This document shows, piece after piece, positions 3,356 through 46,136 of a DNA stretch of 64,000 nt; within the stretch, counting starts at the first letter, position 1, and each line of letters begins with the position of its first letter. Origin of the DNA: Candidatus Chlorohelix allophototropha (GTDB lineage Bacteria; Chloroflexota; Chloroflexia; Chloroheliales; Chloroheliaceae). Below the pieces are notes generated by a model, which was not told the DNA's origin, searched no databases, and saw only the letters and a list, made by a program, of their open reading frames with translations. Where the stretch lies: assembly GCF_030389965.1 (NCBI RefSeq), contig NZ_CP128401.1:62001-126000 (forward strand). The letters are read 5' to 3'. A program made the translations under genes and the position numbers.

Positions 3356-4777
3356 TTGTCAATACGGTTGAGGTTGGCGCTCTACTGTGCCGGGATATGC
3401 GCGGTTGTAGTGATATTGGTCGGGCTGGTGGCTTACTCTCTGCATGCACGCGGTCATTACGATGAGCTTGACCGACTGCTCGTAGCCAATGCCGAGCATG
3501 CCGCTGCTGACTCGATGAATTTCGATCATCCTCTGGGCGGTGCAGATGGCACAGGGGTAGGACTGCTATTATATAATCTTGAAGGCAAAGTGGAGTTAAG
3601 TTCACCCGACGCTGAACTATTCCCCACCCTTAGCCCAATCAAGGTTTTAGCCTCCCCTGCGGGTGCTGCTTTCGATCCAGTAGCCGGGCTAGCCCCATCG
3701 TTATCGGGTTCCCTTTCCCAACATGGCGGTTTTGGTCTTATTTCCACACCCAACCAACGCTGGAGGGTATATGTGTTACCACTGGAAGACTCTACCAGTT
3801 ATATCGAGACAGTCACTTCTTTGGGTAAACTAGACGCTTCTATGCAAACCTTTCGGTTGATTTTGCTGTTTGTAGGCTTACTGGGTGTTAGCGCTGCTCT
3901 CATTGGGGCAAGGCTACTCGCCGGTAGAGCACTCCAGCCGGTCTCGAAAATGATTCAGGCTGCCCAGACCATCTCTCATTCCCGAGATTTTTCGCATCGG
4001 CTGGAAGTGCCACTGACCACCGATGAACTTGGTAGGTTGGCTGATACTTTTAATGAAATGCTCCAAAACCTGGAAGGGGCTTATCAGGCACAGCAGCGCT
4101 TTGTCTCAGATGCTTCTCATGAATTGCGTGCGCCGCTTACTGCTATACAAGGAAACCTTGAGTTACTCCGACGACAGCGGTATATGTCGGAAGAGGAAAG
4201 GGAAGAAGCCTTCTCAGAAGCGGAGCGCGAAACAGAAAGACTGACTCGACTGGTAGCGGACTTATTGGTGTTGGCTAGGGCTGATTCCGGCTCCCAGGTG
4301 CGCCATGGTACGGTTGATTTGGATGAAGTAGTATTGGAAGCATTTAAGGAAGCCCGGAAGTTGGCGTATGGGCACAGCCTTACGCTTGAAGAATTGGAAC
4401 CAGTTCAGCTTGAAGGAGACCGTGACCGCTTAAAACAGCTTGTTCTAATACTCTTGGACAACGCCCTTAAATATACTCCTGAAAGTGGCGCGGTTATCCT
4501 AAGTTTAGAAAACTTAGAGGGGCAAGCAAACTTGACAGTTAGAGATAACGGGGTGGGTATTGCCGAACAAGAACTCGCTCATGTTTTTGAGCGCTTTTAT
4601 CGAGCCGACCCTGCCAGAGGTCGAGACCCTGGCGGCACTGGACTTGGGCTACCCATCGCTCGTTGGGTTGTGCAGCAGCACAGTGGTACTATTACGTTGA
4701 CTAGCGTTCTAGAGCAGGGAACCACAGTGCTAGTAGCCCTGCCTGTTAAAGTTGCTACACCATTGGCAACTTCCTAA
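3356..4777 (+). CDS. Sensor histidine kinase of the OmpR-type two-component system
   Basis: 473 residues: TM1 at about 7-28, a periplasmic region of about 135 residues, TM2 at about 166-188, HAMP, a HisKA domain with His255 in SDASHELRAPL, and an HATPase domain with N box (LLDNALKYTP), DNGVGI and GGTGLGL. It autophosphorylates and donates to the regulator just upstream. Translation starts at TTG 3356, fixed by an AAGGAGGAG site six bases before it inside the end of the regulator gene. The periplasmic domain has no cysteine but several histidines, so copper sensing is possible but unproven. Confidence 0.93.
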   Translation: MSIRLRLALYCAGICAVVVILVGLVAYSLHARGHYDELDRLLVANAEHAAADSMNFDHPLGGADGTGVGLLLYNLEGKVELSSPDAELFPTLSPIKVLASPAGAAFDPVAGLAPSLSGSLSQHGGFGLISTPNQRWRVYVLPLEDSTSYIETVTSLGKLDASMQTFRLILLFVGLLGVSAALIGARLLAGRALQPVSKMIQAAQTISHSRDFSHRLEVPLTTDELGRLADTFNEMLQNLEGAYQAQQRFVSDASHELRAPLTAIQGNLELLRRQRYMSEEEREEAFSEAERETERLTRLVADLLVLARADSGSQVRHGTVDLDEVVLEAFKEARKLAYGHSLTLEELEPVQLEGDRDRLKQLVLILLDNALKYTPESGAVILSLENLEGQANLTVRDNGVGIAEQELAHVFERFYRADPARGRDPGGTGLGLPIARWVVQQHSGTITLTSVLEQGTTVLVALPVKVATPLATS

Positions 4778-22784: not shown

Positions 22785-24149
22785 TCAAGCTAATTTGGGT
22801 TCAGGGTTTTTAAGATTAACCTGATAACCCAACCGCTCTAACCGCCGAATTAACCGATTAGTAATAGTGCCACGTTTGCGTTCGTCCAAGTAATCATAGC
22901 CAAGCTCTTTGTACTCTTCTTTTCGAATAAACATATAATACACACTTACCAGAATGGAATGCGCTACTGCAATAATTGCTCGGCGTTTACCCCGTCTGCC
23001 CGCTAGCTTGGTGTAGAGTGCTCCCAGATAACTTTTCTTACTTTTTGCAGCAGCGTGAGAAGCTTGAATTAAACCCTTTCGTACTGGTCGATCTCCAGAA
23101 GATATACGTCCCGGCAATTGTTTTCCGGCACTCCGATTATTGCCCGGTGCCACTCCAGCCCAACTAGCCAGATGTGCGGCTGAGGGAAAACGGCTCATAT
23201 CAATACCTATTTCAGCGATAAGCAGTTGGGCTACTTTACGGTCAATTCCAGGAATAGTATCTAATAAAGCCACTGCTTCTTCCCAATTCAACGTAGCTAC
23301 AGCGGTAGCTGGGGTGCTGGGGTCTGGAGTGAAATTATTCTGACTACTTTCAAGAGCTTGACCTATTTTAGTAGCAGGGTCAGGACTGACCAAATTAACC
23401 GACGGACCCTCTTTCAATTGTCGTTCAATCTCAGAACTGAAAATCTCAACTTGCTCATCCAGGAAATCAAGATGGGCTAAATGCTGGGTGAGTAGGAAAC
23501 AGTGTTGATCTCGAACCTGGCCTTTCAGAGCTTTAGCTAATTCAGCTCGTTTGGCACGCATTCTACCACGTGCCAGTTCCGCCAGTTTTTGTGGGTCGGT
23601 TTCACCAGCGATGATAGCTTCTAGCATTTGCCTGGCGGATACTCCCCTAATATCTGAAACTACACTAGCCAGTTTTAGGTTGGCCGCTTCCAGAACCTTT
23701 TGTAGACGATTGATCACACTGGCACGTTCCCTGACCAGATTGCTGCGCTGCCGGGTCAAATCCCTCAGATCACGTTGAGCACGTGGTGGAATAAAACTAG
23801 CTCGTAAGAGACCGTGCTGAAGTAATTCTGCCAACCATTGCGCGTCTAGAACGTCGGTTTTGCGACCAGGGACGTGTTTAACGTGCTGAGCATTAACCAG
23901 TAATATCTCAAGTTGACCCTCCAAAATATTATGCACTGGTTTCCAATATTCTCCGGTACTTTCCATCGCTACAATCGTAACTTCCTCTTGTGAGAACCAA
24001 TCCAACAGTTCCAGAAGCTCAATCGTAGTAGTGCCGAAGGTTCGAGTTTTTTGAAGCTGGGTACCATCTGCTTCCAGCTTAAGGCAACAGGCTACTACGC
24101 TCTTTTTATGAACATCCAGACCAGCACAAGAGGGATGAAGCACCAGCAT
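22785..24149 (-). CDS. IS110-family transposase
   Basis: 454 residues. The N-terminal DEDD (RuvC-like) domain shows AGLDVHKKS, AMESTGEYW and GRKTDVLDAQWLAEL; the C-terminal Transposase_20 domain shows LDTIPGIDRKVAQLL, the ASWAGVAPG block and its serine. These enzymes are guided by a bridge RNA encoded in the element's non-coding end. The frame is intact, so the element may still be active. ATG 24149 follows GAGG by five bases. Element ends cannot be fixed because IS110 elements lack clear terminal repeats. Confidence 0.93.
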   Translation of the reverse strand: MLVLHPSCAGLDVHKKSVVACCLKLEADGTQLQKTRTFGTTTIELLELLDWFSQEEVTIVAMESTGEYWKPVHNILEGQLEILLVNAQHVKHVPGRKTDVLDAQWLAELLQHGLLRASFIPPRAQRDLRDLTRQRSNLVRERASVINRLQKVLEAANLKLASVVSDIRGVSARQMLEAIIAGETDPQKLAELARGRMRAKRAELAKALKGQVRDQHCFLLTQHLAHLDFLDEQVEIFSSEIERQLKEGPSVNLVSPDPATKIGQALESSQNNFTPDPSTPATAVATLNWEEAVALLDTIPGIDRKVAQLLIAEIGIDMSRFPSAAHLASWAGVAPGNNRSAGKQLPGRISSGDRPVRKGLIQASHAAAKSKKSYLGALYTKLAGRRGKRRAIIAVAHSILVSVYYMFIRKEEYKELGYDYLDERKRGTITNRLIRRLERLGYQVNLKNPEPKLA

Positions 24150-24895: not shown

Positions 24896-25801
24896 CTATA
24901 TGACCAGACCACTTTCTAGCCGCTTTTGAGCCAACCAATTATGTTCAAATTCTACTGGGGCTAAGTAACCCAAAGACGAATGTAAGCGACCTTCATTATA
25001 AATCCGTTCTAGCCAATCTTCCAACCCCACTGCTACCTCTGCCAAATTCTGAAATTCCTCTAAATAGAGTTTCTCGTAACTAACAGTCTTGTTAAAGCTC
25101 TCCGCCATCCCGTTCTGCTGTGGTCGCCCCGGTTGGCTATGGCTTACTACCGCCCCGATTGCGGTTAACTGCTCACCATATTCTCGGCTGGTGTAGTTCG
25201 AACCCTTGTCGGTGTGATGGATCAAACCTGCTTCTGGTTGCCTCCGCGCTATCGCCATCTGCAAGGCTCGCAGGGTCAACTGAGTATCGTTGTGACGGCT
25301 CACTGCCCAACCCACCACTTTCCGGCTGAACCCATCCAATAAAGTTGCTAGGTAACCTTCCTCTTTTTTGGTGGCTACGAACAACACATCCCCTACCCAA
25401 GCCCGATTCGGGGCGTTGATCTCCCCAGCTTGTTTAGCCGTCACCAACCGATTTGCCTCTCTGGCAGCTTTAGGATCATTGACACTGGTCAGTGGTTTTC
25501 TCCTTTTCCACCGTTTCCAGCTTAAACCCCATTTCTTCAGCAAGCGCCTCACTCGCTTGTGGTTGATCTTTTCCCCACCCTTCTGTAAGGCTTTGGTTAC
25601 GCGCCGATAGCCATAGCCGCTGTAAGTACCTAGTATTTGCTCCACCCGTTGCTTCAGGCTTTCCTCCTCCGGGTTGGCTTTTTCCACCTTATTTTGGCGT
25701 TGGTAATACCAAGCCCGATTGACCCTAAACAGGTGACATAATTTCCTCAGAGAATAGCCCAGTCCTTGCTTTTGGCTGAGCCGGTATAACCCACCGATCA
25801 T
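24896..25801 (-). CDS. IS3-family transposase, OrfB (DDE integrase domain)
   Basis: 301 residues: an HTH_21-like N-terminal part (YGYRRVTKAL) and an rve integrase core with catalytic Asp in WVGDVLF, Asp in HHTDKGSNY and Glu in NGMAESFNK. Performs the cut-and-join steps of transposition. Its ATG overlaps the OrfA stop (ATGA). Its stop codon lies inside the left terminal repeat. Confidence 0.95.
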   Translation of the reverse strand: MIGGLYRLSQKQGLGYSLRKLCHLFRVNRAWYYQRQNKVEKANPEEESLKQRVEQILGTYSGYGYRRVTKALQKGGEKINHKRVRRLLKKWGLSWKRWKRRKPLTSVNDPKAAREANRLVTAKQAGEINAPNRAWVGDVLFVATKKEEGYLATLLDGFSRKVVGWAVSRHNDTQLTLRALQMAIARRQPEAGLIHHTDKGSNYTSREYGEQLTAIGAVVSHSQPGRPQQNGMAESFNKTVSYEKLYLEEFQNLAEVAVGLEDWLERIYNEGRLHSSLGYLAPVEFEHNWLAQKRLESGLVI

Positions 25802-30522: not shown

Positions 30523-33500
30523 GTGGATAAAGCAATTTTTATTGCAAAGATTACAGCACCTAAAGCACGAGGGTTAGTCAGCCGCCAGCGTTTGATTGAT
30601 GAAATCAACGACTTTGATTCTTATCGTTTGCTCTTAATCTCGGCTGGATCAGGTTATGGTAAAACAGCCCTCCTTGCCGATTTTGTCGCACAAACCACAG
30701 CGCGGTTAATTTGGTATTCCCTCGATGAAGGCGATAGAGACCCCCTAAGATTTTTCCGCTATCTAGTGCAAGCAGTTAAAGTAGCCTTTCCTGAATTTGG
30801 TATTCAGTTTGATGCGCTTTTAGCACAAATCGAATCTGGGCGAAGCCTAGAGCAGGAAAATAATCTCCAACGACTGGCAAATCAGTTTGCAGAAGAATTG
30901 GCAACCCAAATTTCGGTTGATAACAAGATTTCTGTGATGGTACTTGATGATTATCAGTACGCTGAAAGTGAGTTGGTTGGAACCTTTATGCGATTTCTGG
31001 CGCTCAAGTTACCTGAACATCTCAAACTGATTGTTTCCACCAGAAGTGTACCAGACCATTTACCGCTGGCTTATTTATACGCCAAACGCCTGATAAAAGG
31101 TATAGGAGCAGCCGAGTTAAGCTTTACACGTCAGGAAATTGCTGATTTGCTGGTTGATGTGTACAAGATTAAAGACTCCGAGATGGTGGACAAGTTGGTG
31201 GAATATTCCGAAGGTTGGGTCACCGCCGTTATCCTCGCTTTAGCAGGTCGGAAATCATCATTAAGTCGTCTCGATAGACTAAGTGGTCCCTATGGTCAGG
31301 GCTATCTGGACAGTTCGGCTCTGTTTGAATATTTGGGAGATGTGGTTCTAGCTGACCAGCCCCCTGATATAGAGGATTTTCTTCTTCAGACTTCTTGCCT
31401 ACACCTTTTAAGTCCTGAACTATGCAACGAGCTTACCGGTTTACAGGATAGTGAGCGAATATTAGAAAAACTGGACAAGCGCAAGCTCTTCGTGGAAGTG
31501 GTAGCCGAAGTTCCTTCTAGTGACTTCAGCAAACCCGATACTTTTTATTATAAGTATCACTCGCTCTTTAAGCGTTTTCTACAGTCGCGTCTTGCTAATA
31601 AGAAAGAAGTATGGCGAGCATGTAACCTAAAAGCGGCTGAACTGGCTTTGCGTTCAGAATATTATATAGAAGGTGTGCAAAATTACCTTACTATAAATGA
31701 AGGGCGAAAGGCAGCGGAAATAGTAGCCGGACTGGCTACTCCGCTCTATGAGTCAGGGCTTATCAACCGCTTGACCGAACTAATCGGGCTAATCCCGCAA
31801 GAAGCGGTGGAGTCTATACCGGAACTTGCCTTTACATATGCCAGAATTTTGTTTGAAAAAGGGCAGAGCGAGGCTGCTATAAGATTAACCGAGAAAATAG
31901 AAAAGCAACACCTTGAAAATGGATCTGTCGAAGGGGCAGCAATGTGCTTGGCGCTACGCGCTCTCGGTTATTCACGTATGGGAATGGTTGAGGAGGGGGC
32001 ACGCCTGATTGAAAGAGCCTCGGCATTTGTTGCTGGTAGGGGCTTGAGTCGGGAAAAAATCTATGCGCAAGCGCTAATATACACCACCGCAGGGATAGTT
32101 AAAACCGATTCCGGTCAGGCTGAACAAGCTGAAAATTCTTTTAAGAAAGGTCAGGAACTATTCGAACAATTAGAACTAAAATACCGGGTTATGCAAAGTG
32201 ATATTTACCTAGCAACCGTGTATAAGGAAATGGGACGCTTGATACGAGCAGGGATTTACTTTGAAAGAGCTTTGAAATATTTTGCAGAAGTGGGCAACCA
32301 GAACCAAGAAGCCTATTGTCGATTTGGTCTGGCAAATTGTCAGATATTGCGAGGAAACTATCGGGAGGCTACCGAACAGCTAAAACTGACCTATGAACTA
32401 ACTGAACAACTGGGCAGTCATTATCTAAAAACTTTTGTAATTTATCAGCAAGGTAATATAAGTAATTTTATCGGGAAGCATATAAATGCGCGGGAACAAT
32501 ATAACTCGGCACTTAAGCTAAGTCAGCAAATTGGTCTTCACAATCTTGAGCTTGAAACCCTCGCTATGATGGCGTTTAACAGTATGCTGCAAGGAAATCG
32601 AGTTGAGGCACGAGAACTTTTAATACAGGGTAAAGAGCTTAACCAAGAATATGCCCTGAATAATTTCGGCGCAATGCTGGAGACTGTTAGCAGTTTGCTA
32701 GATTTGGAAAACCGCAACTATAAAAAGGCTTTGACGGCTTTGGAGCAGGCGGCGAAAGTTTTCAAGGAATACAAGTGGCTGGATTGGATATGCCGCTGCC
32801 GCCTATACCAAGCGATTGTTTACTTTTCAATGTCCGAATTCAAACGAGCGGTAGGGCTTCTAGAAGAAAGCCTTGAACTGGTACCAAATATCGGTTTCGA
32901 ACCATACCAACCCTTTGACCTAATACGAGCCTCTGCCTTATTGGAATATGCGGCAAAAAAAAGAGCCAGCAACAACCTGCATGAATTTCTGCTGCGCAAG
33001 GGCTATCGTCAAAACGCGATTCTTAATGAAAACGCTGGCGTTGATACCGCTGCTTTTGATGGCACAGTAATAGCCCAATTTGAAAATGAATTTACGCCCC
33101 CACCTTCTGCACCGCCGCTTGAGTATCAAGGCACTCCCAAGCTTACCCTGTTGCGCCCTAATCAGGATTCCAGCCAAAATCGTTACAGTAGCCGTATAGC
33201 CGGGAGTCGCTTCCAACTGGAAGTAAGAGCGTTGGATGGAGGTAGGGTTTGGACGGCGGAAGCCGAAATTGAACATTGGCGCATTAGCAAAGCCAAAGAA
33301 CTATTCTTCTTCTTGCTGGAACAGGGCAAATCAACCAGAGAAGAAATTTTCGAGAAGATATGGCCCGATGTTGAGCACAATGCGGCGGCTAATAATTTCC
33401 ATTTCACCTTGAGCAACCTACGCCGCTTAATTAAACCCGTAGATATTAAATTCTCCAGCCAAAGTTATACCTTGAGCGGTGAAATCTGGTGTGACGCGCT

Positions 33501-33912
33501 GGAAATGGAAAAGGCTGTCAAGGCGGCTTTAGCCAAACCGCAAGAACTAGCACTCGAACAACTGGCAACCGCACTCGATCTATACAAGCGGGATTACTTG
33601 GATCAGATATACAGTGATTGGACTGTACCGCGTCGTCAGGAGCTTTTAAGAACATATCTGGAAGGATCGGCTCTTCTTGCCAAAACTTACGAGAAACAAC
33701 GTCAATTCAGCCAAGCGATTTTAATCTGGAGACGTTATCTGCTAAGAGATGAATACCGCGAAGAGACATATGTGGGCTTAATCAATTGCCATTTGGCATT
33801 GGGACATAAGAAAGAAGCCCAGCATTATTATGAAGAGTGCCGCCGCATTATGAAAGAAATCGACATTGAGCCTTCCCCTGAGGTCAGGGCATTGTTGCCT
33901 AAATTAGCCTGA
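30523..33912 (+). CDS. Large AAA/TPR transcription regulator with C-terminal BTAD domain
   Basis: 1129 residues. A MalT/STAND-like ATPase lies at the N-terminus (Walker A AGSGYGKT at 41-48, Walker B VMVLDDYQ), followed by a long array of TPR-like helices from about 400 to 830. A winged-helix region (ELFFFLLEQGKSTREEIFEKIW) and a bacterial transcriptional activator domain (BTAD, about 990-1129, ending EIDIEPSPEVRALLP) close the protein, as in SARP regulators. Such proteins switch on target promoters after binding a ligand or partner. GTG 30523 is the only sensible start; the frame is closed just upstream and no spaced Shine-Dalgarno is seen. The small genes downstream are candidate targets. 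Confidence 0.9.
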   Translation: MDKAIFIAKITAPKARGLVSRQRLIDEINDFDSYRLLLISAGSGYGKTALLADFVAQTTARLIWYSLDEGDRDPLRFFRYLVQAVKVAFPEFGIQFDALLAQIESGRSLEQENNLQRLANQFAEELATQISVDNKISVMVLDDYQYAESELVGTFMRFLALKLPEHLKLIVSTRSVPDHLPLAYLYAKRLIKGIGAAELSFTRQEIADLLVDVYKIKDSEMVDKLVEYSEGWVTAVILALAGRKSSLSRLDRLSGPYGQGYLDSSALFEYLGDVVLADQPPDIEDFLLQTSCLHLLSPELCNELTGLQDSERILEKLDKRKLFVEVVAEVPSSDFSKPDTFYYKYHSLFKRFLQSRLANKKEVWRACNLKAAELALRSEYYIEGVQNYLTINEGRKAAEIVAGLATPLYESGLINRLTELIGLIPQEAVESIPELAFTYARILFEKGQSEAAIRLTEKIEKQHLENGSVEGAAMCLALRALGYSRMGMVEEGARLIERASAFVAGRGLSREKIYAQALIYTTAGIVKTDSGQAEQAENSFKKGQELFEQLELKYRVMQSDIYLATVYKEMGRLIRAGIYFERALKYFAEVGNQNQEAYCRFGLANCQILRGNYREATEQLKLTYELTEQLGSHYLKTFVIYQQGNISNFIGKHINAREQYNSALKLSQQIGLHNLELETLAMMAFNSMLQGNRVEARELLIQGKELNQEYALNNFGAMLETVSSLLDLENRNYKKALTALEQAAKVFKEYKWLDWICRCRLYQAIVYFSMSEFKRAVGLLEESLELVPNIGFEPYQPFDLIRASALLEYAAKKRASNNLHEFLLRKGYRQNAILNENAGVDTAAFDGTVIAQFENEFTPPPSAPPLEYQGTPKLTLLRPNQDSSQNRYSSRIAGSRFQLEVRALDGGRVWTAEAEIEHWRISKAKELFFFLLEQGKSTREEIFEKIWPDVEHNAAANNFHFTLSNLRRLIKPVDIKFSSQSYTLSGEIWCDALEMEKAVKAALAKPQELALEQLATALDLYKRDYLDQIYSDWTVPRRQELLRTYLEGSALLAKTYEKQRQFSQAILIWRRYLLRDEYREETYVGLINCHLALGHKKEAQHYYEECRRIMKEIDIEPSPEVRALLPKLA

Positions 33913-33954: not shown

Positions 33955-34029
33955 CTAATAGCTATTAGCAATTTCCTATAGCAATATCCTGATTCGATGC
34001 TAAGTTTTTGCTAAGAGTCCGTTTATATC
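33955..34029 (+). promoter_or_regulatory. Putative regulated promoter of the peptide gene: palindrome and SARP-like direct repeat
   Basis: CTAATAGCTATTAG (33955-33968) is a perfect 14-bp palindrome. GCTAAG occurs at 33999-34004 and again at 34010-34015, exactly 11 bp apart. Eight bases further lies TATATC (34024-34029), a possible -10. Direct repeats with an 11-bp period ending eight bases before the -10 are the known arrangement for SARP regulators. A second -10 candidate, TATAGA, is at 34031. Confidence 0.45.
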
Positions 34030-34093
34030 ATATAGATACTAAAAGTGACTTCTTGATGTAAATGGGAAATTTAGTTGAAAGGGAGTCTGGGTT

Positions 34094-34228
34094 ATGCGCA
34101 AGCTAATTAATTTTGTGTCTTCAGAAAAAGGTCTTTCTACTCTTAAGATTTTAACTTTTATAGCATCATTCACGGGTTTCGCACATATTATCAATCCGTG
34201 CGGTGGTACAAATCCATGGGGCGTATAA
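34094..34228 (+). CDS. Small hydrophobic peptide, 44 aa, unknown
   Basis: A clear AAAGGGAG ribosome site lies about eight bases before the ATG. The product has a charged N-terminus (MRKLINFVSSEKG), a hydrophobic segment (LKILTFIASFTGFAHII) and a tail NPCGGTNPWGV with one Cys, one Trp and several Gly/Pro. This could be a small membrane peptide, a secreted signal peptide or a modified-peptide precursor; none is proven. It lies between the BTAD regulator and a 106-residue helical protein and is probably transcribed with the latter up to the terminator at 34719. Confidence 0.6.
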   Translation: MRKLINFVSSEKGLSTLKILTFIASFTGFAHIINPCGGTNPWGV

Positions 34229-34317
34229 ACTTCTTACCACAAAAGACCTTTCTGCCGTAATGTAGCGGTTCTGGGACACTCGGTATAGCTCTCTTTATAG
34301 TGAAAGAGGTGTCGTCA

Positions 34318-34638
34318 GTGTTTTCAATTCAGCAACTTGATAAGCTAGCCGGGGCAATAATACTTGATCGGAAGTTGGAAAGAGATTTCCTCCAGAATCG
34401 TCTTAGTGCACTCGATATGTACAATAGAAATTATGCACTTCGTTACGGAGAGCAACCTATCTATTTGTCTGATGAAGATAAAGAATTAATTCTTTCAGTC
34501 AACGCCAATAGTGTTCCAGAGTTCTTTGCTATATTGCTCGATTTAGTTAGCAGAAAAGCTGCTAATCCGACAAAGGTTTACTTGGAAGACAAAACCTATA
34601 GTCATGAGTTAGCAAAGTTACAAGGTTCAGTCGCCTAA
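34318..34638 (+). CDS. Unknown helical protein, 106 aa, resembling RiPP-leader-like domains
   Basis: The start is set at GTG 34318 because AAAGAGG ends eight bases before it; earlier GTG codons at 34300 and 34309 are possible. The sequence is helical with the pattern LDRKLERDFLQNRLSALDMY and LSDEDKELILSV. This resembles the short leader-like domain found in some ribosomal-peptide precursors (Franean1_4349/Nif11-like), although it lacks a Cys/Gly-rich core. The resemblance is by eye and weak. Probably co-transcribed with the peptide gene upstream. Confidence 0.6.
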   Translation: MFSIQQLDKLAGAIILDRKLERDFLQNRLSALDMYNRNYALRYGEQPIYLSDEDKELILSVNANSVPEFFAILLDLVSRKAANPTKVYLEDKTYSHELAKLQGSVA

Positions 34639-34718
34639 TTTAGAAATATCTGAAAAAACGGAGCCGCCATGGTTCCGCTTTACCTTTTCCACAACTAGTT
34701 TTACCCTATGTCACTCTA

Positions 34719-34752
34719 GCGAGAGCGTTATACCCACGCTCTCGCCTTTTTT
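34719..34752 (+). terminator. Rho-independent terminator
   Basis: Perfect 10-bp stem GCGAGAGCGT / ACGCTCTCGC with a 7-base loop, followed by CTTTTTT. Ends the small-gene transcript. Confidence 0.9.
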
Positions 34753-45932: not shown

Positions 45933-46136
45933 ATGTTTTCGATAAATCCCGACATTGTAAAAGCTGAAATAGATTATAGATGTAACGCTTATCACAACGA
46001 AGCACATAATATGCGTCTGTACCAACTGGCTAAAAACAGCAGCGCTAATACTGATGCTGAAATTAATCCTATGCGAAAAAAACTGGGGAAATTATTGATA
46101 CGGTGGGGTATGCAACTCGCCGGATATACTTTATAA
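45933..46136 (+). CDS. Unknown small protein, 67 aa
   Basis: A GGGAGG site six bases before the ATG supports translation. The sequence contains YRCNAYHNEAHNMRLYQLAK and a basic C-terminal helix (KKLGKLLIRWGMQLAGYTL) that may touch a membrane. Not recognised. The terminator at 46160 ends this transcript. Confidence 0.65.
   Translation: MFSINPDIVKAEIDYRCNAYHNEAHNMRLYQLAKNSSANTDAEINPMRKKLGKLLIRWGMQLAGYTL

Follow-up and report, generated by a model that had tools for sequence, protein, structure and literature searches.

Ca. Chlorohelix is a type I reaction-centre phototroph of the Chloroflexota. The stretch of DNA analysed here, called the window below, is 64 kb long (G000:C3:62001-126000) and lies on the chromid of 'Ca. 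Chlorohelix allophototropha' L227-S17. The genome counts 6,086,194 bases (6.09 Mb) in 5 contigs, with replicons of 2.96 Mb, 2.45 Mb, 375 kb and 241 kb among them, and the 375-kb replicon has been described as the chromid (PMC10972752). The family set comprised five genomes, namely the window genome (G000) and G001 to G004; the relatives that carry the module described here are the Chloroflexi MAGs RYN_336, 54-19 and 'isolate 14' (G001, G003 and G004). Elsewhere in the window are two transposase-like ORFs (22785-24149 and 24896-25801), which from their appearance we take to be IS110-like and IS3-like, and a further unlisted intergenic ORF of 67 aa at 45933-46136, with a GGAGG ribosome site (MFSINPDIVKAEIDYRCNAYHNEAHN...). 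The features of the locus, in window positions, are as follows.

30523..33912, + strand: STAND (MalT-like AAA ATPase)-TPR-winged helix-BTAD regulator of 1129 aa and candidate activator for the peptide operon (Pfam, NCBIfam)
33998..34015, + strand: predicted SARP-type operator TGCTAAG-TTTT-TGCTAAG, a perfect heptamer repeat of 11-bp period (from the sequence)
34024..34029, + strand: putative -10-like hexamer TATATC, 8 bp past the second heptamer (4/6 to consensus)
34080..34085, + strand: ribosome site AGGGAG, 8 nt upstream of the ATG
34094..34228, + strand: 44-aa peptide gene (ORF; 34-40-aa ORFs at the equivalent place in three relatives; dN/dS ~0.14 between G003 and G004)
34318..34638, + strand: small helical protein of 106 aa from its corrected start, probably a distant relative of the Os1348/NHLP clan (homologues, GAGG site)
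34659..34677, + strand: weaker terminator-like hairpin (hairpin)
34719..34745, + strand: strong intrinsic terminator, likely the operon end (10-bp stem, T run)

The short ORF starts 181 nt behind the regulator and translates to MRKLINFVSSEKGLSTLKILTFIASFTGFAHIINPCGGTNPWGV. The complete start-stop frame and strong ribosome site announced in the preliminary description are present as described. Of the window's intergenic ORFs of 30-70 aa that start with ATG, 24 in all, only 3 have a comparable ribosome site. Codon usage did not discriminate, as the ORF ranks 14 among these 24. The peptide has one hydrophobic segment (ILTFIASFTGFAHII, 15-residue mean 1.87), CGG stands before TNPWGV, and PW is found near the end, yet the terminus itself is not PW. 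Searches against Pfam and NCBIfam returned no match, in line with the earlier statement that no family is recognised, and the tblastn check proposed for its conservation came out negative, with chance-level matches only and none significant across 61 genomes. A Flp/type IV prepilin, suggested by an EKG-LSTLK pattern, was dropped on sequence grounds: there is no Glu at +5, and the peptides of close relatives have no hydrophobic segment. We conclude that the 44-aa peptide gene is very probably real.

The upstream gene was correctly recognised as a 1129-residue AAA/TPR/BTAD regulator. Its residues 991-1124 match Pfam BTAD (PF03704) at 6e-11, over the cut-off, TPR_12 (Pfam) is found at 4.4e-20, and residues 9-855 match the NCBIfam MalT model at 2e-65 (221 of 537 bits, below the cut-off); the winged helix was assigned by eye from the sequence. 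Orthologues were found only in G001, G003 and G004, and not in G002, with scores of ~2000 bits vs 298 for the next match. Between window and relatives, conservation is lowest in the TPR part (26-28%, vs 39-48% for winged helix and BTAD), as would be expected for the sensor of a changing ligand; TPR regions often diverge fast without being peptide sensors. A search behind the other BTAD genes of the window genome for paralogues of the cassette gave none that was convincing.

The gap between regulator and peptide reads TGCTAAG-TTTT-TGCTAAG-AGTCCGTT-TATATC at 33998-34029. It is the only case, on both strands of the 64-kb window, of a perfect heptamer repeat with an 11-bp period followed at 8 bp by a -10-like hexamer, a distance between repeat and -10 that is a classical feature of SARP promoters. 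This layout was reproduced in 34 of 20000 shuffles of the gap, and the exact TGCTAAG repeat occurs once in the 6.09-Mb genome. At the equivalent place the relatives have GTGATTT-n4-GTGAGAA-8 bp-TATACT, a 32-nt element present once per genome, whose weaker GTGATTT/GTGAGAA repeat, taken alone, was not above shuffles. When nine module promoters were pooled, the 11-bp period stood out, with a pair score of 56 vs 45-50 and a triple score of 141 vs 97-109 for periods 8-10 and 12-15. The DNA sites of SARP regulators consist of two or three heptamer repeats separated by 4-bp spacers (PMC5930380, PMC10972967), and by sequence only such repeats are what precedes the predicted promoter of the peptide gene.

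The small helical protein that follows the peptide was also correctly foreseen, except for its start: it most likely begins at the GTG at 34318 and not at 34300, because that codon has its own GAGG ribosome site and aligns with the N-terminus of the relatives (MFSIQQLDKL / MISLSTIDQL). Homologues of ~40% identity are found in G001, G003 and G004. The window copy has no significant family in Pfam or NCBIfam and does not match NF038399, the Os1348-family model of the NHLP clan; its distant counterparts do match this model (see below). A weak link joins the Os1348-like proteins of other modules to the window helical family (hhalign P 1e-4, probability 56%), and on these sequence comparisons an NHLP-clan relationship of the window protein is probable. 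AlphaFold gave a helical model of low confidence for the family (pLDDT 65), a PDB fold search with this model found no match, and weak phylum-wide matches of the helical-protein profile were left out of use. In G003 the helical protein gene (L017 1531-1734, G003:C85) is interrupted by an in-frame TAA (residue 68 or 69) at a place where the relatives read on, either by decay or by sequencing error. The strong terminator of the preliminary description was found at the likely end of the operon, and an Rfam search gave nothing.

Four family genomes (the window genome, G001, G003 and G004) share the gene order regulator, short peptide, small helical protein, and in the three relatives a receiver-domain-like protein comes after the helical protein; the window module has no two-component gene. 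The peptides of these three relatives (MNANIIGFVSTEEGVEARTEEGNLLVVHSTSLLEGPIVPW, MEAMVMEFVAAEAQVEESSKLVITLPEDGPLTPW and MKAIVTESVAAEAQIEESSKLIVTLPEDGPLTPW) are 34-40 aa long, end in ..PW, are acidic and have no signal-like or hydrophobic segment; the Gly-Gly of the window peptide is absent from them. Between G003 and G004, dN is 0.10 and dS 0.74 (dN/dS ~0.14), and the last 11 codons differ by synonymous changes only; the peptide frame is therefore under protein-level selection in the relatives. A motif common to the window and G001 peptides, FVSSEKG/FVSTEEG, was reached in 17 of 5000 shuffles and was the best among 1147 small ORFs examined. A profile built from the three relatives' peptides alone did not retrieve the window peptide at E 0.5, and the one significant profile match to it came from a profile that contained the window sequence and was not independent. 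For these two reasons we limit the claim to positional equivalence, and on sequence homology is probable but unproven. The frame conservation that the preliminary description had made decisive thus holds for the position of the ORF and, in a single pair (G003/G004), for selection; the window sequence is too diverged for homology to be established by profile alone.

In other families of the Chloroflexia, distant regulator relatives of full length show the same arrangement, often with a two-component gene; receiver or kinase genes close several modules. Among 153 genomes from outside the window's family, close relatives of the regulator occur in 8, these helical proteins in 8 and both in 6 (P 5e-8, a value that treats genomes as independent and is thus overstated). 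In G375, G433, G436 and G453 the order is regulator, peptide of 41-49 aa, DUF5317 protein and small helical protein; the peptides have a basic head, a hydrophobic segment and a LAGGAPxDFG-like junction, and DUF5317 was assigned at 5e-22 in G453 and by resemblance in the three others. G381 carries the same set of peptide, DUF5317-like and helical genes, on a contig that lacks the regulator end. In one branch of the module, peptide and helical protein are separated by a membrane protein of DUF5317 or a similar type (L106 3821-4435; L104, L123, L126, L128).

In G449:C2 the regulator is followed by a 49-aa peptide, a 98-aa helical protein and a response regulator. In G449:C23 the place of the peptide is taken by two tandem, near-identical ORFs of 17 aa (MQDYTVSYYGDDYGDTI / MQDNTVSYYGDDYGDTI), both hydrophilic, before the helical protein and a receiver protein; each of these ORFs (L108 about 4161-4332) has the same GGGAGGCAAGATC ribosome site. 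G447:C733 has an 88-aa peptide, a helical protein, a kinase and a response regulator, with the BTAD regulator convergent. This 88-aa ORF (L107 459-722) has a signal-like head and then four units containing ADDFTNG, an arrangement like that of pheromone propeptides that hold their product in tandem copies. Peptides of the distant modules often have a signal-like hydrophobic head and a tail, and in several of these modules the hydrophobic segment is stronger than that of the window copy. No clear peptide ORF was found in G449:C14, and the peptide assignment is weak in G447:C850 and G448:C28. In these last two (L124 and L125) a BTAD regulator and an Os1348-like protein are followed, as in a natural-product cluster, by a thioesterase-like gene, with an ABC transporter as well in L124. 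The helical proteins of distant modules match NF038399 with E values of 1.6e-6, 2e-5, 6.6e-4 and 0.05, at 13.7-28.1 bits, all below the model cut-off of 40 bits.

We conclude that the locus is one instance of a gene module of the Chloroflexota that is apparently undescribed. The earlier proposal of a small regulated module is strongly supported by the order kept in four family genomes, its recurrence in other Chloroflexia and the predicted SARP-type operator in the gap. In the literature searched, with most subscription journals outside the search, we found no description of cell-cell signalling by peptides in Chloroflexota, no paper that connects short peptide genes with BTAD regulators, none describing the combination of regulator, peptide and helical protein, and no mention of DUF5317.

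Among known systems, the module is like RRNPP cassettes (Rap-Phr, PlcR-PapR, Rgg-SHP, ComR-ComS) in that a short ORF, preceded by a ribosome site of its own, comes directly after the gene of a TPR regulator; here, in addition, a predicted regulator-type operator precedes the peptide. Validated RRNPP propeptides are 21-50 aa long and their receptors 250-500 aa (PMC10075063). The TPR receptor and the adjacent short propeptide gene with its ribosome site are found here, but the putative receptor has 1129 aa with a STAND ATPase and BTAD, the phylum is another one, a helical protein and often a two-component gene are added, and the signal is a putative one. By analogy, it would work like an RRNPP receptor-peptide pair without being a member, because its receptor is far longer than 250-500 aa and is a STAND-SARP protein.

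With SARPs, including large SARPs and SARP-LAL proteins (AfsR, PimR), the regulator shares BTAD, ATPase and TPR, and the locus shares heptamer direct repeats with 4-bp spacers. In large SARPs the SARP domain (winged helix and BTAD) is N-terminal (PMC10972967), whereas here the order is reversed, with the DNA-binding/BTAD part C-terminal, at 991-1124 of 1129, behind a MalT-like STAND part and the TPRs; the apparent target, in addition, is a peptide operon and not an antibiotic pathway. The STAND activator MalT is matched over most of the regulator, but the score lies below the model cut-off and the DNA-binding end is of SARP and not of LuxR type. Gly-Gly cleavage motifs have been described for NHLP/Nif11 leaders (PMC2887384). 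The resemblance to Os1348-family NHLP-clan proteins and NHLP/Nif11 leaders lies in the NF038399 matches of module helical proteins outside the family and in the NHLM transporters of the family genomes, but the scores are below cut-off, the peptide gene is separate, and the helical protein has neither Gly-Gly nor core, with LSDE..SVNAN in place of LSDEELEAVAGG.

That the locus is a regulated module is well supported; the role of the peptide, as a signal, a modified-peptide product or a nascent-chain regulator, we infer. Of the three roles first proposed for the peptide, none has been settled on, and that of a membrane protein has lost ground, given the acidic peptides of close relatives, which have no hydrophobic segment. 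The module suggests, and does not prove, peptide signalling or a secreted-peptide system. Our preferred reading, held tentatively and at a little under an even chance, is an autoregulated peptide cassette, an RRNPP-like receptor-peptide signalling built from a SARP-STAND regulator. The gene order, the predicted operator layout, the terminator and the selection on the relatives' peptide are the parts of it supported at the sequence level. The STAND-TPR-BTAD regulator, as a SARP-type activator, would bind the heptamer repeats behind its own gene and switch on a short operon for the 44-aa peptide and the NHLP-clan-like helical protein, the latter presumably a helper. The peptide, either intact or trimmed to its C-terminal tail, would probably leave the cell and serve as a signal. 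Its sensor would be the TPR part of the regulator or else, in other species, the two-component protein that closes the module. The presence of TPRs in the regulator, and their being its least conserved part, were counted for signalling, and secreted propeptides would fit with the signal-like heads, and with the repetition or duplication of peptide units, in other modules. Counted against it were the relatives' peptides, which have no signal-like segment, the failure of their profile to find the window peptide, its neutral codon usage and the lack of a two-component gene in the window module.

A rather unlikely alternative is that the peptide is a RiPP or bacteriocin-like product, secreted or modified, with the NHLP-clan protein as leader or carrier in trans and an NHLM transporter as exporter. 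Among the five family genomes, those with an NHLM transporter scoring above the model cut-off are precisely the four that carry the module, and G002 has none; with so few genomes, this co-occurrence may reflect one or two events only. In G001 and G003 the transporter lies within 10 kb of the module on the same contig, whereas in the window genome it is on another replicon. The Os1348 matches of other modules' helical proteins, the CGG before TNPWGV and the thioesterase-like genes adjoining two modules would all suit a product, but no modification enzyme was found among the ORFs listed around the clusters examined, and the relatives' peptides have no Gly-Gly. The idea of an NHLM substrate is kept only as a rival because Gly-Gly is not conserved and, in the window genome, transporter and module are not physically linked. 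The NHLM ABC2-type exporter (L051 9794-13981, G000:C2; L052 5634-9908) is a protein of ~1400 aa with an extra N-terminal half that by eye resembles repeated FHA domains; no obvious precursor gene adjoins the HlyD/ABC1/ABC2 set of the window genome.

It is unlikely that the peptide is a regulatory leader whose translation, perhaps stalled at a C-terminal Pro-Trp, controls that of the downstream helical protein: in close relatives the peptide always lies a short gap upstream of that protein, and selection at the amino-acid level has preserved the ..PW end, but the gap of ~36 nt in G001 leaves scant space for an attenuator, and the terminus of the window peptide is not PW. The peptides of distant modules precede DUF5317, are doubled, or have signal-like heads and repeats, which a leader would not require. 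We hold it to be distinctly unlikely that the product is a small membrane protein acting inside the cell, as the hydrophobic segment of the window peptide, and stronger ones in several distant modules, might suggest; the acidic peptides of the three closest relatives and the hydrophilic 17-aa peptides of one module argue against it. Little credence can be given to a chance ORF, with a gap made of promoter and 5' leader only and a window frame untranslated or decayed. Neutral codon usage and the lack of any significant sequence match would agree with it, but not the good ribosome site, the recurrence of length (34-49 aa) and position at most related loci, the purifying selection on the relatives' peptide, or the FVSxEkG match with G001.

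In its broader form, the preferred signalling reading would be an undescribed peptide communication system of the Chloroflexota, with a STAND-SARP receptor, a hypervariable exported peptide, an NHLP-clan helper and often a two-component link; we see this as possible and as doubtful enough to be put forward with reserve. The ligands of large STAND-SARP regulators are mostly unknown. If the signalling reading is true, these regulators would gain a concrete candidate ligand encoded next door, and stand-alone Os1348/NHLP-clan proteins would gain a genetic partner, in a module that is relevant to Ca. Chlorohelix.
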